The notes beneath the pieces are model-generated. The model was not told where the DNA came from. It saw only the letters and a program-made list of their open reading frames with translations, and did not search any database. Below are positions 31,401 to 63,779 of a DNA stretch of 64,000 bases, piece by piece (within the stretch, counting starts at the first letter, position 1; the number at the start of each line of letters is the position of its first letter). The stretch covers positions 2,483,087-2,547,086 of the forward strand of contig OX442314.1 in NCBI GenBank assembly GCA_949358305.1, in the 5' to 3' direction. Origin of the DNA: Strigamia acuminata. Taxonomy: Eukaryota > Arthropoda > Chilopoda > Geophilomorpha > Linotaeniidae. A program made the position numbers and the translations under genes.

Positions 31401-34400
31401 CAGCCATACAACCCCACACCATGACACAAGCAGGAAATTTTACACACTTCTTCAAACAGTTTTTATTGTACATTTCATGTTTTTCCCACCAAACTCGTGG
31501 ACCCTGGTCCCCATAATATAAGTTAAATTTTGATTCATCGCTGTAGAGAATCATTGCCCATTGGTCTGGGGTCCAATCTATCCTTGCCTTGCATCACTCA
31601 AGTCTTCTTTTCATCTACTTGCTGCTTAGAAGTGGTTTTCGTTTGGGAACACGAGGTGCCAATTGAAATTCATATAAACGACACAGTGTTGTACATTGGG
31701 AGACATTTATTCCATTTTTTCCCACTGTGCATGATGAATTTTAGATGACTTGAAACGGTTATTCATTACAATCGAATGAAGTTTGCGATCATCTTGTGGT
31801 GTTGTTTTACGTTTTCATCCACTATAGTGCCGCATGGTGTTTAGTCCTTGTCCAGAGGTAATCTGCTTTATTGTTTTGGAAACTGCAGATTGACTGCACC
31901 CTACAATTGTTGCAACTGATCGTTGTTTACGACCGGCTGCATTAAGTTAGACAATCTGCTCTCTTTCTCCATGGAGATGTCATTGTTGGCACCCATTTTA
32001 ATTTAGTCATAATGTGTACACATTGTTTGAGGTTATTTGCGGCAATTTGGTCACGTGGAATGATGTTTTGCTAATTTTTGCAAATTATTCTAATTTTTTG
32101 TCTCAACACTTTTGTGATTCTAATGTTTTGTCACAGACGTTTTTGTGGATAGTGGGATAAATATCTCACCTTTTTTAATTTTTTTTTGCTTAAAATAAAG
32201 CCAATTAAACATGTTTTCAAAGTATTTTTGTGGATATTTGTTTAACTTTGAAACTTTTGTTTCTAGCCCATTTGAGGAACATGGAATACTGACAAAATCC
32301 GAGTATTCTAATATTTTGGCTTGGGGTTGTACTTGATCATAGGTCAGATGCTCTGCCAGAGCACATACACGGGAAGTCGAACCCGTTAAACAAATATGGG
32401 CAACCTATCTCCTCAGGGTCCAATGCGGTGCATTTGTCCTTCCGTATGTTAAAGGTTGGTAAAAGGCCTATTCATAGGCAACACGCCGGGTTGGTAGCCC
32501 TTGAGCAATTGCATTCATACCTTGCGCAAAACCAATACTTGGGTATTGGTAATGCCGATCTGGTAGTCCCCCAGGAACTGTTTACCCAGTGGTTGGTACC
32601 ACTGAAAGCGACTTGTCGCACGCAAACAAATACCCGGCGCCTGATCACGAGATCTTGTCGTCGTAAGGCATGCTGGCGGATGGAGCCTCAACAACTCCCG
32701 CGATGGTCCCCTCGACTATCGTGACTGTCCCCGCCCAAAGAATAACAATATAACAATTCATTTGTTATATTACATTAATAATGTTTCGTTAACTAGATCT
32801 CGGAATATTCTAATGAACATTCCCGTCCAAATGCGAAGGACTCTTCGCATTAATAGATACTCGAGCTGCGGGACCGAATACGTCTCCGTAGCGCTAACTG
32901 TGACGATGCCGCAAAGTCAGCCGCACCCTTCGAGCATCGCCCGGATCCTCAACCAGTGTAGCCGCCGTTACACTTATCCAGAACCCCCAACCCAGTTGTA
33001 ATGTTAATAAACATGTAATATATCGCACGAAAACTGTAAGTTATTATATTTGATCACATATTTACGTTGCACAGACTTCCGTAGCTTATCTCGGTTAGGT
33101 TGTTACTAGGTTTAGTAATGTCTTGTTTAAACCGATTTATCTCTTATAATGGTTAATTATTCAGCCAAAAGTAGAATCGTTACAATGCTGCATTTCGTAG
33201 CATCATTGTGTGCTGTGATTGCAAAGTATCGTGTGTTTTGTGTGAAAGTGTTTTACCATACCTTTAGCTGCTGGTCACATACATTTGATGAAACATTTGC
33301 ATTTCTAAATAAAATTCTAAGGATAGGAGTAAAACGTCTTTGTTTTGCTGAAAAACAGTGAAAGGTCGGAATCAATTTTCAAATGCATCACCGAGAATGC
33401 AACTTTTGGAAACAAGAGTTTGAACAACATGTCTATTGTCTACTGTATACTCTGGCTTATCGTAAGTGGGTACCCAGTTCCTATTGGCCGAGCCTGTTTA
33501 CTCCTAACTGCAGCCTTTATATTACCACCAGGAAATGTAGTTTTGTTGTGTTTTACATTTGTGTCATTATTGTAATGGTTGAAATGATGTTAATTTGCTA
33601 ATATTTACTAATAAAATGTTTTAAGAAACCATAAAGCAATGTTTTCTGCTATTATTGTTTTAAAATACCTGTTTGTTCAGTTTGTTTATTTTATTGGTTG
33701 CTAAGTCAGGAAAGCAACCATTTTTTGAATTTTATGATTGATTGTTTTGTCTGGCAAGCACACAACATGTATTTTGGCCTATTTTCATGTATACTTACAT
33801 CGGCCAATAGGAACTGGGTACCCATTGGCCGAGCCATTTTAGGGATAAGCCAGAGTATAGTAATTAACTAAAATTAAGGCATTAACTAATTTTTTTTTCT
33901 TTCATGTTTTACATCAAGTACTGTGTTTAAACTCAAGAACTAAAAGAAATTAATTTTGTAAATTACTTGGTTTTAGTTGCATACAATTTCCAAATGGAAA
34001 TTTCACACGCTGCTTTGGTGTTAACTATAAAAAAAATACATTATTTTTGTGTTTGTTGTAGGAATATGTCTTATTATTTGTTACATTCAACGGATCGTTT
34101 ATTATTTCAAAGCTTGTCACAAGTGTTTTCCAGATGTCCTCCACTGACAAATTGTTATTGACCAAATGCCAGGGTAACATGTTGCTACAAGTTGTATTGG
34201 TGTTTTGAAGCAAGTGTAATCTGGCTCTTTCTACATTTTCATTTTGCACTTCACCGCAGAAGGTGATTAAAGGAAATTGGCTGTAGCGCCTTTGAACTAC
34301 TCTAACGATTGTTGTTACCGGTTCATCGAAGTAGTAGTTTGAACGAATGTAAACGCAATATAAAGTCAACCCTGCAACAACTAATACAAATATTAACTTG

Positions 34401-36463
34401 AGCTTTTTTGCGACCTTATTTACGTTGGTTTGGCCGTCACTTTTGATGATTTTGTTTTTGCACGTCTTATACAGACGATCAATCGCATTATCGGTTTTCT
34501 TTTGGTGAATGTGCGATGTAACGTAATACAAATACGAAATGACATCAGGTAATGAGACTAAGGAGAGACCAAGGAACAGGCCCAGGTTGCCTCCTAAATC
34601 GGACAGTAAGGCAATGACATCGTAAATGTACCGTTGTTCATATACGGTGACTTTCTTATTAGTAATTGCTAACGATACAGCCGTCGTATTTTCATCATTT
34701 GTTACGCTTGAATCAGTAACTGGGGTAAAAATTATTTGTCGACACGGACGTCGATAGTGGCAACCAATTGGTTCTGTGGTTAAAACCAAATCCCTGAAAG
34801 CAACATACAGCTTGCGTGCATTGTTTGTACATTTGCAAAGTGGTAAGTCTGTCTTCATGAATGGATATCTCGTGTAGAAGATGTTTAATTAGTTTTTTAA
34901 TTGTGTGATGTATGTGAAACGGTCTTACCTGCAGGTCATAAATTTATTAATTTTTTTCATTAAACAAGTTTGATAGCATTGTTTGTATTCGTCTTCACTA
35001 GCGCATGGATTTATCGGTGAATTAAGAAATACAAACTACAATTAAATACATTACAAGGTATCGCTAAGAAATTTTAAGTTCTTGCGTAAACATAATACTT
35101 TGTCATAAGTGTAATCTATTTTCAATCTTGAACCACCATATAGATTTGCTAGCTGCCACTCTGTTCTAATATCATGGGACATAAGAAAAATCTAAGAGCA
35201 AGGGAAAATAATAATAAAATAGCAATAGCAATTCTACTATATTTAAGTTACCACACGAAAAGAGCCGCATTCACTGATTTTTACGACTAGTAAAACAACC
35301 CAGTTGCGATTGCAGCACGCGCGAGCAGCAATTGAAAGACAAGATGTTAAAACTTAACTAGTTTAATGATGGAAATTTTGTTACGAAAAAACGCGTGCTA
35401 ACACACGTTCATACATAAAAAAAGATGGTGGTCAACCCCAAAAAACGGGGTCAACTTCCGGTCAACAAGGACCGGTCGCTGAATTTACATACCAGAGGGC
35501 TCTTGTAACAACCCTCGATAAGAACAATAATATAACACTTGTAATTAATTCAAACACTGTAAAACATATCGTTATTCAAATAAATTCAGAAAACAAATAA
35601 CTTGGACTAATTTTAAAACTAACATAAAACATGAAATTTAACACTTTAACAACAATATTAAATCGACAGATTTTACACTGATCAGGCTGTCTTTTGTTTC
35701 AAAATTCACTGTTAGTAACTTTTCAACAAATGATTCGCTAGTAGTTTCAGCTGTGTCAATGAATAACATTAGTGTAATTTAGTGATAAATGCTAGTTTGT
35801 AGTTACGAAATTGAAATGTTGAGCATATTCTGCGTATATTATTAGTTTTCGTCTGAACAACAGTGTTATTTGAATATCCCTAAGCAAATACGTTTTAAAA
35901 ATTGAGTTTTTACTAAACTTGTTTTTTCTTTTTTTCTTTTTTTTCTTTTTTTTCTTTATTAATTTTTTTACTTTCATTTGTATACTGACTATCTCATCAG
36001 TATTATTAGTTGCTTTCCAGAGTTCATCCATATCGTAACTTGTATTTTCAAAGTTCATCAGTGCATCAAACGTGGTTATGCATGGATCGGCTATTGATTT
36101 ATATTTATTTGATTTCAGAATTTCTGCCCGAAGCTGGAATAGTTTTTATGTATTGACACTACAGATCATTATGTCAGGTAAATTAACATTTTCCGATCTA
36201 CTGGTTATGTCAACAGCGGTAGGATAACTTAAGTAATGCATTATTCTGTCGTATGTCTGATAAGTATTCATGCACATGCAAAATGAGAATAAAAGCAGCC
36301 AAAAGATGTGATGTTTGTCTCGTTTCCTACTCTTTATAAAATCATCTAAACCAATTAAATTGCAGTTGGGTTTGTGGGCATCATCCTTCATTAATTTGAG
36401 AATTGTCAGACAGAGTTTTCTTTTCCCTCTTCTGTATCTCCACGTCAAATTATTATTCTCCAT
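25406..36463 (-). CDS. Two-module (concatenated) DEG/ENaC channel gene 1, with one in-frame stop
   Basis: Exons (minus): E1 36463-35972, E2 35879-35807, E3 35750-35677, E4 35191-35099, E5 35035-34929, E6 34868-34085, E7 34024-33967, then cassette A 28770-28625 and 28575-28466, then last exon 25760-25406. Phases match throughout, giving 764 codons. Module 1: TM1 (FWLLLFSFCMCM) near residues 52-68, Cys-rich ectodomain, TM2 ending LFLGLSLVSL. The same exon E6 goes on through a linker to TM1 of module 2 (LIFVLVVAGLTLYCVYI). Module 2 ends in SVAKLFSNIGSVIGILTGLS. DEG/ENaC proteins are trimeric Na+ channels normally with one TM1-TM2 unit per chain. E1 holds a TAA at 36148-36146 (codon 106), with the frame open on both sides and the exon nearly as long as in the paralogue. 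A spare cassette (28159-28071, 28015-27919, 27842-27742) has a +1 frameshift. Possible alternatives are a pseudogene, a null allele or a sequencing error. Confidence 0.75.
25829..26345. mobile_element. TIR element carrying a CCTGA/CCTAA telomere-like repeat
   Basis: The ends ATACTGGGAGCAACATG and the complement of CATGTTGCTCCCAGTAT are inverted repeats. Inside are inverted copies of TAAGAGCAACATTGCTCTTA-like words. At 26043-26122 a run of CCTAA and CCTGA units resembles the arthropod TTAGG telomere repeat. No transposase is seen. It lies in the last intron of DEG/ENaC gene 1. Confidence 0.65.
26745..27235 (+). repeat. Dispersed repeat family, copy 2
   Basis: Related to 22125-22670 (same orientation) and to 36590-36960 (inverted). 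It shares GACAGGGACTC, GTCCTTTAATCAGTTGCTAGG and GGCCAAGTGGTCAC landmarks. Non-coding. Confidence 0.6.
27284..27717. mobile_element. hAT-type MITE (434 bp) in a DEG/ENaC intron
   Basis: The termini CAGCGTTTCCCAAAC and GTTTGGGAACCCCTG are the typical hAT inverted ends. A perfect 8-bp duplication AGTTAGAT flanks it (27276-27283 and 27718-27725). Subterminal GGGGCGCG words repeat inside. No transposase remains. Confidence 0.9.
27742..28159 (-). pseudogene. Spare module-2 ectodomain cassette of DEG/ENaC gene 1 (frameshifted)
   Basis: Three exon-like blocks (28159-28071, 28015-27919, 27842-27742) match exons E8-E10 of gene 2 in order, phase and motifs: GEMKFIPYKNYIYIW, then HFILPEDQFF, then RINTPKRPCDD...CERKC. 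The middle block is 97 bp against 96 bp in gene 2, so its frame breaks after FFLPK, while its 3' part (GFNTKNDITRQT) is still readable in the shifted frame. The splice borders survive. It could be a dead duplicate of the cassette at 28770-28466 or a once-alternative exon set. Confidence 0.7.
29521..30307. mobile_element. Mariner-like element with decayed transposase, nested in the solo LTR
   Basis: The inverted ends read TACTCCCTCTGTCCCAAATT and its complement, with TA at the borders. The right terminus is duplicated as two adjacent GTATACCATAATTTGGGAC copies. Around 29850-29960 the plus strand still reads as a helix-turn-helix fragment (TINEICKQIEITPLTISRIR), as expected of a Tc1/mariner N-terminus, but with stop codons just before it. 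Confidence 0.75.
30846..32329. mobile_element. Tc1-like transposon with long TIRs and decayed transposase, nested in the solo LTR
   Basis: Inverted arms of about 250 bp start CAACCCCAAGCGAAAATATT and end in the complement, with TA flanks. Between them the minus strand (31554-31339) encodes a Tc1 transposase core fragment, ILYSDESKFNLYY followed by VMVWGCMAASG, matching the DES and VWG blocks of the DDE catalytic domain. The remaining transposase is broken by stops. Confidence 0.85.
33444..33862. mobile_element. Small TIR element with TATACTCTGGCTTAT ends
   Basis: The left end TGTATACTCTGGCTTATCG and right end GATAAGCCAGAGTATAG are inverted. Both carry an adjacent TTCCTATTGGCCGAGCC-like block. 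Similar ends bracket 55168-55785 and 59278-59897 in the other DEG/ENaC gene. Confidence 0.5.
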
Positions 36464-48023: not shown

Positions 48024-48878
48024 TTACTTTGTATGCTTTGTCAAATGTTTTTTAAAAGTATCATTTCGACTACTAGAATAAGCACACAAATGGCACTTGA
48101 ATGGTTTTTCTCCAGTATGGGTTAACAAATGCATTTTTAAATTACTACTTGTAGTACAGGAATATGCACACAAATGGCACTTGAATGGTTTTTCTCCTGT
48201 GTGGGTTAATAAATGCTTTTTTAGACTTCCACTTTCTCTGCAGGAATAAACACACAAATGGCACTTGAATGGCTTTTCTCCGGTATGGGTCAATAAATGT
48301 CTTCTTAAAACCCCACTTCCAATACAGGAATAATCACACAAATGGCACTTGAATGGTTTTTCTCCTGAATGGGTTAATAGATGACTTTTTAAATTCCCAC
48401 TTTGATTGCAAGAATAATCACACAAATGACAATTGAATGGTTTTTCTCCACTATGGGTTAACATATGATTTTTTAGAGTTCCACTTTCACTGCTGCAATA
48501 ATCACATAAATGGCACTTGAAAGGTTTTTCTCCCGTATGGATTAATAAATGTTTTCTTAAATTACCACTTTGAATGCAGGAATAATCACATAAATGGCAC
48601 TTGAAAGGTTTTTCTCCCGTATGGATTAATAAATGTTTTCTTAAACTGCCACTTTGAATGCAGGAATAAACACACAAATGGCACTTGAAAGGTTTTTCTC
48701 CAGTATGAGTTCTCATATGGACAATCATGCATTGTTTAAGTCGAAAGGAAAGTGCACATGTTTGACATTTGTAAGGCTTTTCACCAGTGTGTTTGAGCAT
48801 GTGATGTTTCAAAAGATAACAATTTGAACACGAATAGTCGCACAAATTGCAACTGTATATTTGAAGTTTACTTTCCAT
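48024..48878 (-). CDS. C2H2 zinc-finger protein with ten tandem fingers (284 aa)
   Basis: A single uninterrupted frame from the ATG at 48878 to TAA at 48024 encodes ten C-x2-C-x12-H-x3-H fingers with TGEKPF or SGEKPF linkers and almost no other sequence. Fingers 3-10 share the CHLC-[DVA]-YSC core and differ mainly in the DNA-contacting helix (e.g. IQSGSLRKH, NQSGNLKSH, TTSSNLKMH). This points to internal finger duplication under changing specificity. It is probably a DNA-binding nuclear protein; no KRAB, ZAD or other effector domain is present. An upstream non-coding exon is possible (CAGTTTTTCGCAG at about 48894). Confidence 0.9.
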   Translation of the reverse strand: MESKLQIYSCNLCDYSCSNCYLLKHHMLKHTGEKPYKCQTCALSFRLKQCMIVHMRTHTGEKPFKCHLCVYSCIQSGSLRKHLLIHTGEKPFKCHLCDYSCIQSGNLRKHLLIHTGEKPFKCHLCDYCSSESGTLKNHMLTHSGEKPFNCHLCDYSCNQSGNLKSHLLTHSGEKPFKCHLCDYSCIGSGVLRRHLLTHTGEKPFKCHLCVYSCRESGSLKKHLLTHTGEKPFKCHLCAYSCTTSSNLKMHLLTHTGEKPFKCHLCAYSSSRNDTFKKHLTKHTK

Positions 48879-51800
48879 TTTTGACTTTCAGTTTTTCGCA
48901 GATGACTCCCGATGACGCCGAAGTAAACTTATTCTGAAATTTAAAAAAAATTATTTAATTCTTTAATTTGTTCCCCTGACCGCTCATCTACCCTAGCGCT
49001 ACTCTGCTGATCAATCTACTCGCTTTACAAACCTGTAACTGATTTTAACTTAAAAAATATACGTTGTGAGGTCACTAGAGATCTCTGATTACAAAGAATC
49101 GAGTCGAAATGAGCCCTGGTAGACAAGAATCGCAATCGAATGCAATTCGTCTGTTAGGCCTAACTTTTGTAGCCCGAGCACAATTGCACCATACGTTTAT
49201 AAACTAGAACATATAAAATTAAAACGCAATCAAAAGAAATCCACAGATTCGTATCTCCTTCTTCAACCATCTGTCTGTAAATCTTTCAAATTTTTCAAGT
49301 ATTTAGAAGCTTTGATACCTTTAAGACGTAATAGAAATGACGAACGAGAAAGTGAGATGTGAGGCGTGGTAAACAATGTCACAACAAACCCACACCCGAC
49401 GGCGCACACACAAACCCAATAAATAAGCACTCAGAGGATTAGTTGAGCGCATCTCAGCATTCTGGCTTTATTTTTTGCTCAGACCAGGGGTCCTGTCCAT
49501 TTATTGTTGAAGTACTTATAAAATGTCGAACCAAGAAAAGGAGACAAAACCTTGCCAGGCAGGGGTCAATTATAGTTTTTTAGATGAAATAAAATTGCAG
49601 GTCTCTTTCCACCTTATGTGAGAATGATTAGACAACCATTAGGTTTGGTTGTTGTAACCTTTTATTGTAAACTACTAGTCCAAGGTCCATGTTAGGAGAT
49701 GAAAAGTGCCCCTCGTGCTTTCCTGCAATGTCGCCAGTAAGTCTTCCATAGGATAATTAAAATATATTTAGTTTAAAAATAATAAAAGCAAGAATTGTTT
49801 TTTTTTATTATAATTTTCCTCTTTTTAATTTTTTTGTCAATTTTTTTTATAAACTATTTTCGTAGTTAAATAAAGAACTCTAATTTCTATTTGTTTGGTT
49901 ATGCGCCACTAGATGGCGCCATCGATTTTAATACAGACAGGATTTGTCAGAAGATTTATTTGTACAAGTTTTCGGTAAAAATACATTTAGTAGAAAAAAA
50001 TTAAGGGTTGATATTGTCAATTGTTCAACGCTGAACTGCCTAACCGCGGAAATAAAAGACAATAATTTGTATAAATTCTTTTGGAGCAATAGCGAAGCCG
50101 CGCGCGCATGTGACTTCACATTTTGCTCAGTGCATGACTGCCCGTAACGATTACATCACATCCGGTTAATGGCGCGGCGTTTGTTGCTTGGACATCATCT
50201 CCTTCTATCCATTACTAACAAACCTAAAATCGTATTGAAGAGCAGTGAAAAACAATGTTCTCTTAAGGTATGTGACATTCTGCTCTGAAATTCCATTTTT
50301 AATTAGAGATTACGAAATTTTATTCGCGATTGAATCGAACGATGTGTAGCGTTGAGCTGGTTGAATTTCATATTAATGATTTGGACATTTGGTTTTGTAA
50401 AACTGCTTTTTACTTATGACTAGTATTTACTATGCGCCAATTTTCATTTGTTATATCCGAATCTGTTATAAATTAGAAGTTCGACCCAATTTTAAATGTT
50501 AAAAAGTCGTCACAAATTCTAGTCTAGAACTTCTAACACGCAATTAATTGAGCATTCGCAACACGTTGAATTGTACGAATATTTAGCATCGCACGATGGT
50601 TGATTTTGTATCAATGATTTTGAAATTTGTTAAGACTGCATTCTAAGGTATAAATTAAGATTAATTAAATTGGCGATAATTGTGTACAATTAACTAATCC
50701 TTTAGTTCTCTGGTTCTTAATATTTGAAGCCGTCGGCACCCCCTTGACCACCCCTTACCCAAAGGAAAATAATGTTTAGATCTAATTTTTTACTGGTGTC
50801 ACTTAACCACTCATGTATTAAACATTTTTCTGAAGTGGTTAAAAATTCAAAAGTTCAAAATTGATAAAATTTTATAATTACAAAATTGCCTTAATTAATG
50901 AAACTCTCTATTTCAAAATGCGACAGAATATTTCCAAATGTGACAGAAAATTTCAAAATGTGACAGAAAATTTCAAACTGTGACAGAATATTTCAAAATG
51001 TGACAGAATACTTCAAATTGTGAGAGAATTTTTCCAAATTCTGAGAGAATATTTCAAAATGCGACAGAATATTTCAAACTGTGACAGAATATTTAACTGC
51101 ACTGCACATTTAACATGCAAAATTTTACGTTTAGACTGGTTTAAAAATATACTAAAAACAAGTTTAAATGACACTATGAGTCCGCCTTCTGTCCACAACG
51201 TTGCATTAATTATTCGAAATTTAAATTGCACATGGTAACTAACTGTTATCTTAATAAATTAATACGGAATACGTAATAAGTTGGTGATGAAGTTACGAGT
51301 GTTGTGAGATTTTAATTGTGCTTACAAGATAAAATATTTCTATGTTGAACAATATATCTGAGAATTTACCACTATCTATGTCATAAACATACAACCAATG
51401 TGGAGATTGCAAAACAGTCACCTTTTAGCTCTCCAATGACCAATCCCAAAGCATGTAACTCTCCGCATATGAAACTGATTAGTTTTATTTTGCCGGTGCT
51501 GCCATCTGTTATGAGTGTTTCAAACATGTTGCATTCAAATTTAATTCCACATGATGGTATGATTGACTTTGAATTGGTTGATTGATTGTTGCGATTAAGT
51601 CAGCTCTCATCTTATCTTGCAAGAAGATTCATGTTGACCTAATTGTCTAGACAATCACTCATCGTGCTATGGATAATTAAAACTTTATTTCGAGAGACTC
51701 TTTTTGAGAAAATATGTGACTTCAATTATTGTTCAGACTATGCTACTTTTTAAACGCTTGTTTTGCTACTTCACAGCTATTTATCAGCTCTGCCTTGTGT

Positions 51801-52345
51801 GAAAAGTGTATTTAAAAGTGGCTGTTGTGCAAGAAAGAAAAGAATTTGTTGTATTCTGGTGATGTTGAGATGTGTAGCAGCAGCTGAAAGATGCTGACAC
51901 TCTATCTACGTCTTAAACTGCAATGCTTTGTTTGGAGAAAGTGCATAGGGAGAAACAACGTGAGCACCCTGATTGGTTTCCGTAATTTTCAGGGGGTCAT
52001 GCGCAGTAAGAAGGAGGATAATAAAAGAGGGTCTGCAAGATTGCAATAAAGAGGACAAAAAACTTCACTGCAAAACACTGCACAAGTGGCGTAAGCACTA
52101 ACTGTAAATGCTTTAAATAGAAAGCGGGCGTTTTGTTGTCAGAATCTAAATTCCTCCATGACTTTTTCGTGTTTTTGATCAATTTAGACATTTATTTTAG
52201 TCGTTTTGTTCAATTTAGTTTGATTTAGACCTGCGTTGTAAAGGACATGTTGCATTCCATTAGAGCATTTACAGTACAAATTCAATGCATCCAGTTATAA
52301 GCTAAGCAGTGCTTTATTATTTTAAACCCGTGGAAATAAGGCCAA
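48879..52345. other. Intergenic region, mostly unassigned
   Basis: No gene is recognised. A tandem TTTCAAAATGTGACAGAATA repeat (20 bp, about seven copies) lies at 50920-51085. At 50140-50270 a GC-richer block ending AATGTTCTCTTAAG/GTATGT resembles a 5'-UTR exon with donor, but no downstream coding exon was found. Confidence 0.45.
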
Positions 52346-55300
52346 TCAAAATTGAAGAAGAGAAAAGAAGGAGAAACCAGTAAGAATACCAATAATAGAT
52401 CCTATCTGACAAAATAACTTTACAATGGTAATCTCTGGCTGTTCTTCAATTATTTCTCTGATGTTATTTTCAAAGCTATACGAAACAGATTTTGTGAAGA
52501 CTTTCCAGTCCTCTATGTTGCTGGTGATTGAAGGATTGAAGATGGTTTCTTGACAAGATGCTTTGCAGGAACATTCTTCCTTGGGGTATGTCGTCATCAG
52601 AGTTTTCAAATATGTCTCGTAAGTTGTTTTAGCCGTCTCTTGAGATAGGCAAATGGGGAATTTACTTTTATCCATGGATGGAAGTCTAGTAATACAACAA
52701 TATTTAATGGAAATATACAGTGTGCCATGACACATGATTTTTTCCAGTTATTAAAAATTGTGCATACATTTGAACTGTTTGGGTGCACGAGGGTAGCAAG
52801 GTAGATCAAATGTGACAAATTAAATTTATTGGTAAAAATGACAATTTGTGACGATTCTACTTTTAGGCTAAATTATTAGCCATTTTAATAGATAAATCAG
52901 TTTAAACAAGACGTTGCTAAACCTAGCAACAACCTAACCGAGGCAAGCTACGGAATTCCTTGCAGCATGAATCATTAATCGAATAGAAATAACTTACGGT
53001 TTTGTATGACATAAAACATGTTTATTAACATTATAAATGGGTTCGGGGTTCTGGGCACTTGTAAACGGGCGGCATCAACTGGTTGAGGATCCGGGCGAAG
53101 CCAGAGGGATACGGCTGACTTTACGGCATCGTCACAATGAACGCTACGGAGACGTATTCAATCCCGTGGCACGAACAGCTATTTAATGTGAAGAGTCCTT
53201 CACATTTGATGGGAATATTCTTTAGAATATTCCAGGATCTAATTAATACAAAGTTATTAGCGGAATATAACAATTTATTGTTTTATTATTATTATTGGGG
53301 CGGGGACAGTCACGATGGTTGAGAGAACCATCGCGGGAGTTGTTGAGACTCCATCCGCCAGCATGCCTTACGACGACAAGATCTCGTGATCAGGCGCCGA
53401 GTATTTGTTTGTGCACGACAAGTCGCTTTCAGTGGTACCAACCACTGGGTAAACATTTCCTGGGATTACCAGAGCGGCATTACCAATACCCGAGTATTTG
53501 TTTAATGTAATATTTTCACGGCTATTACTCACGAACTACCAACCTGGCGTGTTTACCTGTAAATAGTGTTTTAACCGACCTCTAAAATACGGAAGGACCT
53601 CCTGTACGAGAGCGAACCCTGAGAATATGGCTGTCCATATTTGTTTCGTCTTCGGGTTCGACTTCCCGCATACATGCTCTGGCAGAGCGTCTAGCCTACG
53701 ACCAAAGAATCGCATCGACAGATGCGACCGTTACCGATCATAAGATGGCACAGGTTAATCATCCTGTGCTTGGATGCTTGGATGCTTGGATGCTTGGATG
53801 ATTTACTATGTCACCGTACAGATCTCGCTGTTCCTTGGAACAGCAAGCTAAAGCTACAAGGCTATTTCATCTATTTAACATGTCTATTATCGGAGTCAGC
53901 CTTCCCGAAAGGGCCCTACAACAACAATAACAAAATAGTATTAATACTAATTGTGAAAAGCTGAGGAGGCCCGATGTGTCGATAGTGAAAGAGAGATCAA
54001 ACGATAACCAATACAACTACAGACAATATAAACATATTCAGTATCAAGCCAAGAGGGTTTTCTGGTGAGAAACCAGAACAGTGATATTGGCGATAGCCAA
54101 TCAGATGTCCGAATCGATGGATTCGTGGGTCACTTTAGTCCCGACCTAGTAGAAGACTTGGTCTGGACCTAGCAGAAGACTTGGTCCGGACCTAGCAGAA
54201 GACTGGGTCCAAGAGAGTCCGATTGGTTCTCCCCTTTAAGGTAAGTAAAACGGGTTATTGAGTCGGTAGAATCAATATCTCAACTAAATAATATTTAATT
54301 ATGCTGAATAAAATATCTTATATTTTATTCCCGTCAACAAAACAATGATTTATCATAATTCTAAACTTTCTCGAGTTTAAACTGCGGGCGTTATTTAAAC
54401 AGCGCCATCTAGTGTGAACATTAGTTATTACGGTGTTTATAACCGTCACAAATTGCTTATGTTATGATCATTTTTTTCAATGATTTGAAAGCTTTAAACA
54501 TAAATAATTTTTTTTTAGTTTAAAAATTTTTCAGAAACTTTAATAAATTGTGCTTCTCCAACATTTTTGTTGTTTTTGTTGTTTATAAACACCAATAATC
54601 ACAGAAACGGAATCTTTGAATACACCGGCTGTTACCAATAAATTTGCTCCACTTGATTGTTAGAAATATACCGTATACTCAAACAATGTGTGTAGTGTAT
54701 GATTTGTAAATTGCAATATGGGATGCACGGTAATTAGTGGATGAATTACAAGTTACCTGCAATTGAAAGGTTGTTGCTCAAGTTTCTTTTCAAAGCAGTC
54801 TTCTTCACATCTTAAAACTTCATCATTTGGTCTGCAAGGACTTCTCGGGGTATTTAATCGAACAAGCTGGAAAGATTAATCAACTAAGTGGCAATTTGAA
54901 CAGATTGAACAAATTGGGGCCCCAAATCAAAGAAAAATTTGATTTTGTCAAAACTGTCGATAATTTCTCAAAAGTGACAACAATTTATCAAATTTGATAA
55001 ATCCGTCAATTTACGGTCGGCGCATTCAATAGCACTCGTTAAACATTTTTTCTATTTATATTTTTTTAATCAAGAGATTTAAATGACAACTGATGCAGAT
55101 TAAATTGGGTGCCATTTTTGAAATCTAATCACTCTATTTAAAATATTGCAATGGCTTTTCGAATGTGCTTATACTCTGGCTTAGGTTGGCCTTTCGCCCA
55201 TTGGTCGAGCCACACACAAAAATAGACCAAAACACCAGAAATGCAATTCATGTTCACTACAAATTTTTTCAAAGTGAACCAAGTTCTAGATCGCGAACTT

Positions 55301-58300
55301 GAACCAATAGTTCAGTTTACTTTTCAAAATTTGTTTTTAAATTGAAATTACAACACTCAGCCCTGATTGGCTGTCACATAAAACGTCTAGTGGACGTATC
55401 ATCAACATTTTCAAAATGTTGATGATATTTCCACTAGAAATGTCATTTTGTAAATTTCGAATTTGAATTTGAAATTAAAAAATTATCGAAAAAATTCAAT
55501 TGAATTGAAATTGTCAAATTGAGTGACTAATACCAACAGCCTCTAGGAACTTCCCTGCAACACAATCACTGATTTATTTATATTTTAAGAACTTAACAAA
55601 GTGAACGCAAACTTCGTTCACTTATAAAAGTGAACTAGTTCGCGATCTTAGTTCGCGAACGCGAACTAATAGTTTGCGTTCGATACAACACTGGTTGTAG
55701 TACAGTTTACAGTTAGAAGTAGTGAGACTCGGCCAATGGCAGAAAAGGCAACCTTATAGTGAGCCAGAGTATAGTGGAGTTATCATTTTTTGAATTCACC
55801 GTTTGAGGGTTAAAGTTGACAAAAGCACTTAATTTGCTGGGTACATCAAAAAGATATTTCGGATGAAAAAATTGATTTGTTGGCAAAATGAAGTGCTGGA
55901 ATACATAAAGTCAAATTAGTAACTACTGCAATTAACAGTGCGAAGGATGAACTTCTATCTCACTTCTCGTTTAAGAGGACAGTAGGGACTGGGCTGATCG
56001 ACAATCAATAGAAAGGTTCTTTTTCGAACAAATGGCCGGTCACCTGTGTACAAATATTTTAGTGAGAATTAAAAGAGACTTTTTTTTTTTTTACCTTTAT
56101 TGAATGCAGTACACATTCCATACACTGTTTGTTTTAATGAGAAGTTGGCAAAATAAAATGCAATATCCTCTGCTGTTGCCCCATACTATAAGTTTGTTAA
56201 ATTTTTACACTTTTGAATTGATAACTGTTATTAAAAATTGTGCATACATTTGAACTGTTTGGGTGCACGAGGGTAGCAAGGTAGATCAAATGTGACAAAT
56301 TAAATTTATTGGTAAAAATGACAATTTGTGACGATTCTACTTTTAGGCTAAATTATTAGCCATTTTAATAGATAAATCAGTTTAAACAAGACGTTGCTAA
56401 ACCTAGCAACAACCTAACCGAGGCAAGCTACGGAATTCCTTGCAGCATGAATCATTAATCGAATAGAAATAACTTACGGTTTTGTATGACATAAAACATG
56501 TTTATTAACATTATAAATGGGTTCGGGGTTCTGGGCACTTGTAAACGGGCGGCATCAACTGGTTGAGGATCCGGGCGAAGCCAGAGGGATACGGCTGACT
56601 TTACGGCATCGTCACAATGAACGCTACGGAGACGTATTCAATCCCGTGGCACGAACAGCTATTTAATGTGAAGAGTCCTTCACATTTGATGGGAATATTC
56701 TTTAGAATATTCCAGGATCTAATTAATACAAAGTTATTAGCGGAATATAACAATTTATTGTTTTATTATTATTATTGGGGCGGGGACAGTCACGATGGTT
56801 GAGAGAACCATCGCGGGAGTTGTTGAGACTCCATCCGCCAGCATGCCTTACGACGACAAGATCTCGTGATCAGGCGCCGAGTATTTGTTTGTGCACGACA
56901 AGTCGCTTTCAGTGGTACCAACCACTGGGTAAACATTTCCTGGGATTACCAGAGCGGCATTACCAATACCCGAGTATTTGTTTAATGTAATATTTTCACG
57001 GCTATTACTCACGAACTACCAACCTGGCGTGTTTACCTGTAAATAGTGTTTTAACCGACCTCTAAAATACGGAAGGACCTCCTGTACGAGAGCGAACCCT
57101 GAGAATATGGCTGTCCATATTTGTTTCGTCTTCGGGTTCGACTTCCCGCATACATGCTCTGGCAGAGCGTCTAGCCTACGACCAAGGAATCGCATCGACA
57201 GATGCGACCGTTACCGATCATAAGATGGCACAGGTTAATCATCCTGTGCTTGGATGCTTGGATGCTTGGATGCTTGGATGATTTACTATGTCACCGTACA
57301 GATCTCGCTGTTCCTTGGAACAGCAAGCTAAAGCTACAAGGCTATTTCATCTATTTAACATGTCTATTATCGGAGTCAGCCTTCCCGAAAGGGCCCTACA
57401 ACAACAATAACAAAATAGTATTAATACTAATTGTGAAAAGCTGAGGAGGCCCGATGTGTCGATAGTGAAAGAGAGATCAAACGATAACCAATACAACTAC
57501 AGACAATATAAACATATTCAGTATCAAGCCAAGAGGGTTTTCTGGTGAGAAACCAGAACAGTGATATTGGCGATAGCCAATCAGATGTCCGAATCGATGG
57601 ATTCGTGGGTCACTTTAGTCCCGACCTAGTAGAAGACTTGGTCTGGACCTAGCAGAAGACTTGGTCCGGACCTAGCAGAAGACTGGGTCCAAGAGAGTCC
57701 GATTGGTTCTCCCCTTTAAGGTAAGTAAAACGGGTTATTGAGTCGGTAGAATCAATATCTCAACTAAATAATATTTAATTATGCTGAATAAAATATCTTA
57801 TATTTTATTCCCGTCAACAAAACAATGATTTATCATAATTCTAAACTTTCTCGAGTTTAAACTGCGGGCGTTATTTAACACTAGAACGGCCAGACCGGTC
57901 ATTTTGACCGGTACAGCTGTTTAAACAGCTGCAGCAATAAACCCAATGGGTTTACGGTGCTGCTAATTTGTGACTTTAGCTGATTTATGATGCTTTATAT
58001 CATAAATCATCAAAAGTTGAATTTTTCTTAAGAAATAATAAAAAAAAAAGTGAATTGACCTAGAACGGCCGAAACCGGTTAAAATGACCGGTTGAAATCA
58101 CCTGAACAATACGTGCACCAAACTGCACTAAACGTGCACCAAACGTGCACCAAACGTGCACAATATGTGCATACAACGTTTTGGCATCAAACTGATTCAG
58201 TAACACGCGAAACATGCGAAGAAAATACCAAAACAAAAATTGATGGTTTTTATAAAATCTGATAAAATTAAAAACGGAAATTTAATTTTATCAGGTTTTA

Positions 58301-61300
58301 TAATAACCATCAATTTTTGTTTTGGTATTTTCTTCGCATATTTTGCGTGTTATTGAATCAATTTGATGCCAAAACGTTGTTTACACGTATTGTGCACGTA
58401 TTGTAAAAGTATTTTGCATATTTGGTGCACGTACTGTTCACGTTATTGCAACCGGTCATTTTAACCGGTTTCGGCCGTTCTAGGTAGGCCGAAATTCCGG
58501 CCGTTCTAGTGTTAAACAGCGCCATCTAGTGTGAACATTAGTTATTACGGTGTTTATAACCGTCACAAATTGCTTATGTTATGATCATTTTTTTCAATGA
58601 TTTGAAAGCTTTAAACATAAATAATTTTTTTTTAGTTTAAAAATTTTTCAGAAACTTTAATAAATTGTGCTTCTCCAACATTTTTGTTGTTTTTGTTGTT
58701 TATAAACACCAATAATCACAGAAACGGAATCTTTGAATACACCGGCTGTTACCAATAAATTTGCTCCACTTGATTGTTAGAAATATACCGTATACTCAAA
58801 CAATGTGTGTAGTGTATGATTTGTAAATTGCAATATGGGATGCACGGTAATTAGTGGATGAATTACAAGTTACCTGCAATTGAAAGGTTGTTGCTCAAGT
58901 TTCTTTTCAAAGCAGTCTTCTTCACATCTTAAAACTTCATCATTTGGTCTGCAAGGACTTCTCGGGGTATTTAATCGAACAAGCTGGAAAGATTAATCAA
59001 CTAAGTGGCAATTTGAACAGATTGAACAAATTGGGGCCCCAAATCAAAGAAAAATTTGATTTTGTCAAAACTGTCGATAATTTCTCAAAAGTGACAACAA
59101 TTTATCAAATTTGATAAATCCGTCAATTTACGGTCGGCGCATTCAATAGCACTCGTTAAACATTTTTTCTATTTATATTTTTTTAATCAAGAGATTTAAA
59201 TGACAACTGATGCAGATTAAATTGGGTGCCATTTTTGAAATCTAATCACTCTATTTAAAATATTGCAATGGCTTTTCGAATGTGCTTATACTCTGGCTTA
59301 GGTTGGCCTTTCGCCCATTGGTCGAGCCACACACAAAAATAGACCAAAACACCAGAAATGCAATTCATGTTCACTACAAATTTTTTCAAAGTGAACCAAG
59401 TTCTAGATCGCGAACTTGAACCAATAGTTCAGTTTACTTTTCAAAATTTGTTTTTAAATTGAAATTACAACACTCAGCCCTGATTGGCTGTCACATAAAA
59501 CGTCTAGTGGACGTATCATCAACATTTTCAAAATGTTGATGATATTTCCACTAGAAATGTCATTTTGTAAATTTCGAATTTGAATTTGAAATTAAAAAAT
59601 TATCGAAAAAATTCAATTGAATTGAAATTGTCAAATTGAGTGACTAATACCAACAGCCTCTAGGAACTTCCCTGCAACACAATCACTGATTTATTTATAT
59701 TTTAAGAACTTAACAAAGTGAACGCAAACTTCGTTCACTTATAAAAGTGAACTAGTTCGCGATCTTAGTTCGCGAACGCGAACTAATAGTTTGCGTTCGA
59801 TACAACACTGGTTGTAGTACAGTTTACAGTTAGAAGTAGTGAGACTCGGCCAATGGCAGAAAAGGCAACCTTATAGTGAGCCAGAGTATAGTGGAGTTAT
59901 CATTTTTTGAATTCACCGTTTGAGGGTTAAAGTTGACAAAAGCACTTAATTTGCTGGGTACATCAAAAAGATATTTCGGATGAAAAAATTGATTTGTTGG
60001 CAAAATGAAGTGCTGGAATACATAAAGTCAAATTAGTAACTACTGCAATTAACAGTGCGAAGGATGAACTTCTATCTCACTTCTCGTTTAAGAGGACAGT
60101 AGGGACTGGGCTGATCGACAATCAATAGAAAGGTTCCTTTTCGAACAAATGGCCGGTCACCTGTGTACAAATATTTTAGTGAGAATTAAAAGAGACTTTT
60201 TTTTTTTTTTACCTTTATTGAATGCAGTACACATTCCATACACTGTTTGTTTTAATGAGAAGTTGGCAAAATAAAATGCAATATCCTCTGCTGTTGCCCC
60301 ATACTATAAGTTTGTTAAATTTTTACACTTTTGAATTGATAATTTAATATTCTGATTTTTTTTTACCTTGATTGCAGATCTTCGGTCTTTGTCGTATAAA
60401 TCAAGACGAGACGAGACATTCCATAATTGCAGTGTTTGATTTGCGAATTCAGATAGTGGATGGAGTAAATCCAACAGTTGTAAATGATCACAATCAGTTG
60501 TGTTGAGTTTTTGGGCTAAGTCCTTTTTAGCAGCTGATATGATTGTACTATCTGTACATGCAATGATGAGTGGAAAATGAATTTTTTCATCTCTAATGAG
60601 TTTAACAGTTTTCAAGAGTTGAAATTGAAAATATGAATCAATCAAATGGTAAATGTAGTAGACAGATATCAAGCCAAAGAATAGTGAAGTTGTGATTTTG
60701 ATCACTTTTTGAACAAAAGTTGGTTTTCGGTTATTCTGTATCTTTTCAAGTGACATTTCAATTTTATCTGTCAACTTGGAATTTGCTGTTGTTGGTTTGT
60801 TGGTGCATGTTTTGCATGAGTGAATGAATATTTCGACCAAAGTCAAGCAAGACATGCCGAAATAGAGGCCGATGTTTCCTCCAATGTCGCATAGCAAATT
60901 GATGATGTCATAAGAAAAGCGTTCGACTAATGTTCGAACGAAAGTATTGACAACATAAATTTCTATTTTATTTCCATCATCAGGTGTTCTGTCGAATGTT
61001 TGGCTGAACCTTGTCTCATCACATACATTACCACATCCACACTGTGATGCTGTATCCTTATTTCTGATAACTCTTAGTATTTGTTTGCACTGAATCAAAG
61101 TGTCTTTGTCATTGCATTCCGGTAGATATTTCGCTTCATAAAATGGATATCTAATGTGACAACTTTTATTAAAGTTGACTTCTAATTTTTATTAATAACA
61201 GTTAAAGGTTCATTTTTCCCGCCATTATTTTTTTCCCGGGAAACGGGAAATTTTAATTCAATTTCCCGGGAATTCCCGGGAAATTCCGGGAATTCAACAA

Positions 61301-63779
61301 AATTAGGTATTTTTGCATTGAAAACAACAAAAAAAACCACTAGTCATTAAAACGAGTGTAAACACACTTTAAATGTGTTCACACTCGTTTTAATTGCAGC
61401 TAAGAATTGCTTTTCCTTTTCAAAACTGCAATCTTTCATATTTTGTGGTCCAAAATTGCAGTTAAACACATTTTGTTGTTCAAAATTGCAGTTAGACACA
61501 TTTTGTTGTTCAAAATTGCTATTAAACACATGATCTGGTTGTCAAAAATTTCAGTTAAACACATCTTCTTGTTTAAACTTGCTGTTAAAGAAGTTTAGTT
61601 GTTCAAAATTGCTGTTAAACAATGCGATGAGAAAGCGAAACGAATATGACGGGGACCGGAATGCGAAGCAAATACGACGGGAATGCCAAACGAATAAGAA
61701 TTGCGACGGGAATGTGAAGCAAAGGCGACGGGAATGCGAAGCTAATGGGATGGGAATACGACGGGAATGCCAAAAGAATGCGAATTTTGACGGGAATGCG
61801 AAGCAAATGCGAATTGCGACAGGAATGTGAAGTGAATGCAACGGGGATGCGATGGGAATGCGATGGGAATGCGACGGGAATGCGAAGAGAACACGACGGG
61901 ATTGCGAAACAAATGCAAATTGCGACGGGAATGCAAAACGAATGCGAATTGCGACGAAAATGCGAACCGAAGGAGACGGGAATGGGATGGAAATGCAAAG
62001 CAAATGCGACAGGAATGCAACGTGTAAGCGACGTGAATGGAAGTTGCATTCACGCCGCTTACACGTTGCATTATGCAACATGTATGCGACGCAAATTCAC
62101 CGAAAATAGGACTGTCAGACTGCCGGGAAAACCCGGGAAATTAAAATAAAATTCCCGGGAATCGGGAATTGAAAAATTGCGAAAATTCCCGGGAATTCCC
62201 GCCCGGGAATTCCCGGGAATGAACCTTTAATAACAGTCAGATAAAAAAAAATATTTTTGAAATGTGTTGATTTGTGATTTATGCACGGAAAGGAATATTT
62301 TTTCATTGATTTCTGTTATTGAGTCGAATTAAAAGACTTACTTGCATTTCATTTGTTTGACGAGACATGGGCGTACGCAATCATGTAAATAATTATTACA
62401 TGGATTTTTCTTAGTGTTGAAATAGTGATACTAAAATACAAGTTTCATATTCTTGTATTATTATAGGGCTTTCTCTAAATTACGTAGCGTCTTAGGGCGG
62501 TTCTGTTTATTATCTTATTTTCTAAGGAGGGAGGGAATTTGTTACAGAGATTTGATATTAAGTGTTGATGTTAATTCTAGTCAACCAAAACACAGCATTA
62601 CGTAAATTACTGACAGCCCTTATTACTCATTAGGAAATAATTGGCAGTTGTGCTTAAATAAAACTGATAGATTGAAGAAATGCTTCTGATTAATGGCTAG
62701 AAAATAATTCACTTTTCTGTTTGAATTAATTATTAATTTAATCCTTACTTCTTGCACTCTAATTCCAACTATATTTTTGCCATTTTTCATTTCTAAGGCA
62801 TTTTTCTCTTCCGCGTATAAATGATAAACGACTGCTGATGGATCTATTAACACCTTGAAATTGAATGTAATGGTTTCAAGAATGAGTATTAAACTTTATT
62901 ACGAAATATTTCACAATTTTGACAGCTCATTTTGTAAATATGTGGTGTCTAACTTTGTGGTGTGAGAAATGCAAAATAAATTGTGAGAATTGTCGATGAA
63001 ATTACATACTCACCTGAAGATATTTACAATGCTTGGGAAAATTAAGATTTATGACCATCTTATGAGCAGCATTCCCATATGGGAACGAAATTGCTAAGGA
63101 AAAAAGGAACTTGTAAAAATAAAGAATACAGGAATTATTGTTGACTTACGACTGGAAACTTGTGCAGTGGTCTCATCCACAGTCTCATAATTTGCAATTG
63201 TAAGGTTAATGCGCGTTTTAGGCTGCAAATATATTTTTTTCCAAATTCGATCAAACTTTTCTCGTTTGGTATAGAGAAAAAATGAAAAAGATTTACTGTT
63301 TTGAAGTAGGCATCAGTTATATAACTAAGTGAAGTAGAATATTGTAGAATATCACTGACATTAAAGTCTGAAAATGGTGGGTGCATTCGACCATAACTAC
63401 ATTGATCTTTGTCGGCAGATTTTTTTGTGTTGTTGAAAATGAAATTGTTAAATTCTTGGTTAGTAAATGGATATAAATACAAATAGGGAGAGGAACCATG
63501 CGTTGTATCAATCATGTGTGCATCAACTGCTGTGGGTTCGTCCATGAAATACAATACCCGATCTACTGTTTGATACACACAAGCTGCCAAATTGATAATT
63601 AGTAACACACAAAGTAAAATCTTGATATTTCGTTTCTTCTCCGAGATATTTGTCAAACATTTGATGAATGCCGGAGTACTCTGTTGCTTCGACATAGTAG
63701 TGCGAACAAGTTGAAGCAGTTTTCGTCTTCTCATTTGTTGGATTTGGCCCACTGGTCGATTTGATTCCTCTCTCTCCAT
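52346..63779 (-). CDS. Two-module (concatenated) DEG/ENaC channel gene 2, 11 exons, 776 aa, intact frame
   Basis: Exons (minus): 63779-63297, 63222-63150, 63093-63014, 62853-62749, 62430-62342, 61150-60367, then 60303-60213, 60160-60081, 60012-59917, 58983-58874, and last 52685-52346. All borders are GT-AG, phases agree, and the sum is 2331 bp. Module 1: TM1 about residues 51-69 (ILLCVLLIINLAACV), PTAVD after it, Cys-rich ectodomain, CGCGNVC, TM2 about 359-386 with GMS. A 40-residue linker leads to TM1 of module 2 (about 427-447). Its ectodomain has VYGMCTAFN, SPYCPL and NTPRSPC...CEEDC. The chain ends inside or right after TM2 (ILTGFSFFSLLQF). GMS and GFS are the G-x-S filter signature of the family. 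Exons 7-10 exist twice (also 56185-56095, 56043-55964, 55895-55800, 54866-54757) through a 3.48-kb duplication. Ligand and ion selectivity are unknown. Confidence 0.85.
52847..54450 (-). mobile_element. Solo LTR, 1604 bp (left duplicate)
   Basis: The ends TGTGACG and CGTCACA are flanked by the 4-bp duplication AATT (52843-52846 and 54451-54454). It matches the solo LTR at 29365-33184 in the opposite orientation. The short plus-strand open frames inside (53137-53510, 53722-53964) have no recognisable product. No internal retroelement domain is present. Confidence 0.8.
55168..55785. mobile_element. TIR element with TATACTCTGGCTTA ends enclosing a GTTCGCGAAC-rich block
   Basis: CTTATACTCTGGCTTAGGTTGG and the complement of GAGCCAGAGTATAGTGG are inverted ends, as at 33444-33862. 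The interior 55250-55700 contains the TTCGCGAACT and GATACAACACTGG words of the hAT MITE at 42239-42869, so one element is probably inserted in the other. Duplicated at 59278-59897. Confidence 0.5.
56327..58567 (-). mobile_element. Solo LTR (right duplicate), interrupted by a piggyBac-like MITE
   Basis: The same LTR as 52847-54450, carried along by the segmental duplication and later split by the insertion at 57879-58511. Confidence 0.8.
57879..58511. mobile_element. piggyBac-like non-autonomous element, 633 bp, TTAA target site
   Basis: The ends CACTAGAACGGCC and GGCCGTTCTAGTG are inverted. TTAA flanks both sides (57875-57878 and 58512-58515), and the left duplicate retains the empty TTAA. 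Most of the element is a large hairpin (58200-58260 versus 58290-58355). ACCGGTCATTTTGACCGGT-like palindromes lie near both ends. Confidence 0.93.
61206..62226. mobile_element. TTAA-flanked CCCGGGAATTCCCGGG-rich element, 1021 bp, with internal tandem repeats
   Basis: TTAA/AGGTTCAT at the left and ATGAACCT/TTAA at the right are inverted, suggesting a piggyBac-like non-autonomous element. Both subterminal regions are arrays of CCCGGGAATTCCCGGG palindromes. Internally there is a 30-bp array with TGTTCAAAATTGCAGTTAAA (61436-61625) and a 12-18 bp array of GGGAATGCGACGGGAATGCG type (61630-62035). It occupies the intron between exons 5 and 6 of DEG/ENaC gene 2. Confidence 0.7.

Follow-up and report, generated by a model that had tools for sequence, protein, structure and literature searches.

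The window, i.e., the whole 64,000-nt stretch of Strigamia acuminata DNA analyzed here, contains a gene (gene A) in which two DEG/ENaC channel modules lie in a single open reading frame. Its sequence suggests an architecture that we regard as highly probable at the gene level, with two DEG/ENaC modules sharing one frame across a linker of about 40 residues within a large family. Translation of the two modules as one chain is very likely, and gene A as a whole is likely to be a real protein-coding gene of a large two-module DEG/ENaC family derived from fused tandem genes.

On the minus strand (63779-52346), gene A comprises 11 exons. All its introns are GT-AG, and with the conserved acceptor of exon 6 the exons add up to 2331 nt and 776 amino acids, as in the preliminary description. 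The TM1-TM2-TM1-TM2 order proposed there was borne out by hydropathy peaks. Exon 1 (63297-63779) carries the start codon, the cytosolic N-terminus, TM1 of module 1 (63620-63564) and the start of ectodomain 1; 18 nt ahead of the start codon there is an in-frame stop. The module 1 ectodomain is continued by exon 2 (63150-63222, phase 0 to 1), exon 3 (63014-63093, phase 1 to 0), exon 4 (62749-62853, phase 0 to 0) and exon 5 (62342-62430, phase 0 to 2). Exon 6 (60367-61150, phase 2 to 0) runs from the end of ectodomain 1 through TM2 of module 1 (60906-60832), the linker (60831-60718) and TM1 of module 2 (60717-60634) into the start of ectodomain 2. Module 2 then extends over exon 7 (60213-60303, phase 0 to 1), exon 8 (60081-60160, phase 1 to 0), exon 9 (59917-60012, phase 0 to 0) and exon 10 (58874-58983, phase 0 to 2). 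Exon 11 (52346-52685, phase 2 to stop) completes ectodomain 2 and adds TM2 of module 2 (52432-52349), and the chain terminates where this helix terminates. On the same strand, an AATAAA poly(A)-type signal (52313-52318) is located 28 nt past the stop codon. A longer model of 780 aa (2343 nt), with the exon 6 AG placed 12 nt upstream, was dropped because this AG was not found in paralogues A3 and A4. In both, the next AG, 12 nt on, was taken as exon 6 acceptor, and the same AG in gene A gives the 776-aa product. The PF00858, structure and protein-database searches with gene A described below were run with sequences of the 780-aa model. At 61280-62210, in the intron preceding exon 6, short tandem repeats with 11-, 22-, and 29-nt spacings lie between CCCGGGAA-rich stretches.

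Within the 784 nt of exon 6, one open frame leads from TM2 of module 1 over 38 linker residues to TM1 of module 2. The probability of 265 open codons by chance is about 1.4e-7, given that stops occur elsewhere in the window at 0.058 per codon. The presence of a linker had been recognized before and is upheld, while its limits were corrected from residues 386-427 to 384-421. Within it we found neither an in-frame stop nor an AATAAA or ATTAAA signal, either of which the preliminary description had set against a joint chain; the AATAAA at 60972 in exon 6 is coding sequence ahead of TM2, outside the linker. The exon-end phases are 0,1,0,0,2 in each half of gene A, a shared pattern expected of fused tandem duplicates in which the upstream last exon and the downstream first exon have become one. 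AlphaFold modeling of exon 6 with a two-row alignment gave a pLDDT of 34.5, too low for the model to be used.

Comparison with the PF00858 profile supported the identity of both modules. When scanned separately, the halves of gene A scored 50.2 and 65.8 bits against a gathering cut-off of 23.6, and the whole chain scored 108.4 bits in two separate stretches. In gene A, module 1 is divergent and matches the profile over residues 262-390 only. The halves of paralogue B2, the only other family member scanned in this way, reached 108.7 bits for module 1 (profile positions 4-449, almost the full profile) and 75.3 bits for module 2. The best solved-structure match was BRTNaC1 (E 4.1e-13 for module 2 and 1e-7 for module 1), and the PDPNaC1 structure also matched module 1 of gene A (E 5.6e-7). 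By hydropathy, each module of gene A has a large Cys-rich ectodomain flanked by two TM helices; modules 1 and 2 contain 16 and 13 Cys residues, respectively, and four N-glycosylation sequons each. The G-x-S selectivity-filter motif of DEG/ENaC TM2 is present as GMS in module 1 and GFS in module 2, and module 1 retains it in 54 of 57 loci fetched from the genome (GLC, GMC, and GLA in the others). A His-Gly motif precedes TM1 in DEG/ENaC proteins but is not known to occur in every member; it was absent from residues 1-53 of gene A and from all 57 linkers. In place of the one TM1-TM2 unit per chain that characterizes DEG/ENaCs, gene A and four rebuilt paralogues carry two units in a frame. A protein database search returned no match for the whole chain (E up to 0.001) or for module 2 (E up to 1); as ordinary DEG/ENaCs also remained without a match in this search, the absence says little. 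No Rfam match was obtained within the window at gathering scores.

Searches of the assembly that includes the window (157 contigs, 237.5 Mb in total) placed gene A in a large family. With exon 6 of gene A as a query we obtained at least 144 matches, all spanning TM2 and TM1 and 139 of them free of stop codons. The corresponding exon of a second, B-type gene of the window gave 141 matches listed, of which 6 overlap the gene A list and 17 are partial; among the matches listed, 118 are new spanning loci (112 open). Another 112 rows came from a third query of greater divergence; 58 of them were left out because they lie in B-type clusters already counted. Among the 54 entered, 7 overlap the B-type list, 5 are partial and 42 are new and spanning (40 open); none overlaps the list obtained with gene A exon 6. 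The union amounts to at least 304 loci that match across the TM2-linker-TM1 exon, 291 of them without a stop. Since only the best candidates were scored, 304 is a lower bound, and it refers to places rather than distinct genes, some possibly being haplotype or very recent copies; identical scores were seen in several rows, e.g., C1:5396613 and C32:58126. The loci are spread over 13 or more contigs, most of them on C1, C6, and C8, and their identity to the query is mostly 42–65%. The double-module gene of the preliminary description is thus retained as one frame with two DEG/ENaC modules, but not as a lone fusion, as it is one of at least 304 loci. The exons of the gene's two ends were found in the vicinity as well: at least 95 of the 144 exon 6 loci have an upstream exon 1 match, at least 109 a downstream exon 11 match, and at least 72 both (same strand, 12 kb), compared with 1 and 2 partners in the opposite-strand control. 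These partners were taken from 150 listed rows for each exon, so that a missing partner does not equal a missing exon.

We fetched 57 loci, two of them from the window. The fused exon was open in all 57, with 56 distinct sequences and three pairs at least 98% identical. Counted as the residues between TM2 and TM1, the linker had a length of 37–45 in every case, and its letters varied strongly; in gene A and its near paralogues the flanking TM helices vary less. Lys and Arg outnumber Asp and Glu in all 57 linkers. An in-frame Met is present in 39 of them, including that of gene A, and missing from 18.

Four paralogues were rebuilt over their whole length: A2 and A3 (contig C1), A4 (C6), and B2 (C8), with 776, 772, 780, and 800 residues, respectively. 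All four have 11 exons with GT-AG borders, the intron phases of gene A and no stop; one of them is about 25% identical to gene A in the fused exon. We then calculated dN/dS by the Nei-Gojobori method for each module and the linker, and the module values across four genes ranged from 0.45 to 0.98. For gene A vs. A4 they were 0.49 (0.37–0.66) in module 1 and 0.60 (0.45–0.82) in module 2; the corresponding values were 0.45 and 0.52 for A3 vs. A4 and 0.52 and 0.70 for A2 vs. A4. Values for module 1 and module 2, respectively, were 0.94 (0.48–2.11) and 0.54 (0.29–1.03) for gene A vs. A2, 0.86 and 0.70 for gene A vs. A3, and 0.98 and 0.77 for A2 vs. A3. The modules are thus constrained in comparison with A4, whereas the closest copies are indistinguishable from neutrality, which indicates that the family evolves fast. 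The linker (0.81, 0.28–2.52, for gene A vs. A4; 2.44, 0.35–4.29, for gene A vs. A2) is too short for a verdict. Judged by its sequences, the family appears to be large, clustered, and fast-evolving, like a gene family of the sensory-receptor type.

A tree of 31 TM2 exons, built on a short alignment of 120 columns, placed module 2 of the A-type genes and of B2 in a single clade (97/94), in line with a fusion that happened once, ahead of the A/B split. The module 1 rows were not recovered as one clade, and a single clade for them was not rejected (AU p 0.107). A tree uniting nine A-type module 1 and module 2 rows against the rest was rejected with p 0.019 for a group chosen after seeing the tree. 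Two rows have long branches, module 2 of B2 among them. A single origin of the fusion is likely on this phylogenetic evidence. Most likely, two neighboring tandem DEG/ENaC genes would have fused, with the final exon of the upstream gene continuing into the initial exon of its downstream neighbor, and the resulting gene would then have multiplied in the manner of a chemoreceptor family.

Within gene A we detected a 3.48-kb tandem duplication of exons 7-10 that the preliminary description had missed. The distal copy occupies 56227-60342 and the proximal one 52747-56224, with exons 7′-10′ at 56185-56095, 56043-55964, 55895-55800, and 54866-54757. The copies are near-identical; apart from a 633-bp element, 3 differences separate them over 3.48 kb, namely two substitutions and one base of a T run. 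Their sole coding difference is a G to R change in exon 8′, and the splice sites are intact in each copy. With either copy gene A encodes 776 aa; use of both leads to a stop after residue 680 and of neither to a stop after residue 543. The duplication may be recent and real, or may represent two haplotypes arranged in tandem as an assembly artefact; if real, it could disturb the splicing of gene A. It leaves the fused exon 6 untouched. The 633-bp element (57879-58511), present in the distal copy only, has terminal inverted repeats between TTAA sites and resembles a piggyBac-type MITE.

The second two-module gene of the window, the B-type gene (28467-36463, minus strand), is represented by pieces resembling exons 1-10 of B2, and its TM2-linker-TM1 exon is open and 24% identical to exon 6 of gene A. 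It contains an in-frame TAA in exon 1, its exon 8 was recognized by seven residues alone, and comparison with B2 revealed no exon 11 for it. The sequence suggests that this gene is probably disabled, while its relative B2 is intact. Two other apparent lesions were rejected: the TAG at the end of its exon 6 proved intronic by comparison with B2, and a frame break in exon 9 concerned pieces that are not the gene's own. These pieces (25406-28015, minus strand) are A-type and resemble exon 9 (28015-27977), exon 10 (27842-27744), and exon 11 (25762-25406). Elsewhere in the window, three non-coding stretches (52790-54500, 56270-57880, and about 32290-33000) share translated segments and probably belong to a transposon family. 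A long open frame at 48024-48887 encodes C2H2 zinc-finger repeats, as judged from its translation.

As a control we inspected the eight best-scoring PF00858 loci of the genome. The frame ended 7–20 codons past the TM2 match in all eight; only the TM2 side was inspected, and these exons could be last exons of two-module genes. A cluster at C4:7.358-7.377 Mb contains eight consecutive TM2 matches in open frames of 129–198 residues; a fused exon is lacking there, in agreement with single-module genes. This region of C4 (7.36-7.38 Mb) and C11:5.27 Mb hold clusters of apparently single-module genes, and contigs C3, C4, C9, C10, and C11 hold many more DEG/ENaC exon matches with short frames, apparently from clustered single-module genes. 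Judging from these matches, the DEG/ENaC superfamily seems to be very large in this genome.

Several readings compete with a single, intact double chain. The locus might give rise to two separate single-module proteins by way of an internal promoter or poly(A) site, or of translation that starts within the linker, in which case the open frame would be incidental. The in-frame Met in the linker of gene A and in 39 of the 57 linkers overall would allow for this, and apparently single-module gene clusters do exist in the genome. Yet in the 18 linkers without Met a separate module 2 could not start at a linker AUG, the linker of gene A has no poly(A) signal, and an incidental frame is not expected to be open in 291 of 304 loci or to keep a constant 37–45 aa. 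We thus consider separate proteins quite improbable. Somewhat better placed, and still unlikely, is a double chain that a cytosolic protease cleaves in the linker after synthesis, so that the two subunits would be delivered in a fixed 1:1 ratio to a trimer of the ordinary kind. The excess of Lys and Arg over Asp and Glu in all linkers agrees with such cleavage, as does the greater variation of linker letters compared with the adjoining TM helices in gene A and its near paralogues; the length held at 37–45 residues despite the changing letters argues against it. Misassembly, or decaying fused copies out of use, is hardly credible as an explanation of the fused frame. It could draw on the two copies of exons 7-10, near-identical and one TTAA-flanked insertion apart as haplotypes in tandem would be, on the window's B-type gene with its TAA in exon 1 and no exon 11 of its own, and on the identical scores of several rows together with the three pairs at least 98% identical among 57 exons. 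Against this stand the recurrence of the structure at no fewer than 304 places, which are spread over 13 or more contigs and for the most part 42–65% identical to the query rather than copies, the four fully open paralogues, and dN/dS values below 1 in both modules vs. A4.

If the intact double chain is made, its assembly has to be considered. Both ends of a DEG/ENaC module are cytosolic and the pore is a trimer. A cytosolic linker can therefore join two modules. Two modules leave a trimer incomplete, so that the simplest way to close it would be to add one single-module subunit to one double chain. We tentatively propose a stimulus-gated cation channel in which the double chain would provide two pore modules and a single-module subunit the third, with the pairing of modules 1 and 2 fixed and the identity of the receptor varying. 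The single-module partner is guesswork, and the genome offers many apparently single-module genes. Alternatively, double chains might assemble together, either as a set of three with two linked trimeric pores or as a pair that provides three pore modules and leaves one out. The retention of TM1, TM2, and G-x-S (GMS, GFS) in both modules of gene A is in line with this, and we give it a chance not far short of even; self-assembly of double chains is about as plausible as the 2+1 arrangement with a single-module subunit. It is conceivable, and rather doubtful, that about 300 variable double subunits combine with a shared single-module subunit, which would transfer the logic of odorant receptors and their co-receptor to DEG/ENaC channels. 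In all these schemes the membrane topology, assembly, and gating of the two-module chain are inferred.

The closest solved relatives of the gene A modules are the centipede channels BRTNaC1 and PDPNaC1, which are single-module chains, with 431 and 421 residues, respectively, in their structure entries, in contrast to the two-module gene A. PDPNaC1 is described as a homotrimer from antennal neurons of Scolopendra (PMC12714832). The TM2 stretch of BRTNaC1 has its best match in the window's genome at 43% identity, and that of PDPNaC1 at 34–41%. The 43% match to this centipede heat channel lies around C6:3525124-3525468, with a second match (42%) 2 kb away. Duplication and fusion have put several pore modules in one chain also in two-pore-domain K+ channels, two-pore channels, and Nav/Cav channels. 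There the number of modules per chain (2 or 4) divides the fourfold symmetry of the pore, whereas in a two-module DEG/ENaC chain 2 does not divide the trimer.

Large DEG/ENaC families are known in spider mites and flies, and to our knowledge insect pickpocket and spider mite ENaC proteins are single-module subunits. Both groups have members shown or suggested to act as chemoreceptors, a likeness to the role proposed for the two-module family, and two-module members are not mentioned in the passages compared (PMC7738191). A sensory role of the two-module family is inferred from its size, clustering, and fast change together with such suggested chemoreceptors in insects and mites. Among the literature matches listed, from a search of freely accessible papers, there was neither a natural two-module DEG/ENaC nor such a family, and protein-architecture database entries with two ASC domains may exist. 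The modules themselves are DEG/ENaC, while for the two-module chain and its scale no description was found in the literature searched.

As two modules cannot fill a trimer evenly, the family must solve its assembly in some other way, be it a 2+1 partner, linked pores, a silent module or cleavage. With some three hundred loci, the family provides a natural setting in which to examine what fixes the stoichiometry of trimeric channels. The two-module DEG/ENaC set also points to a large receptor-like family.
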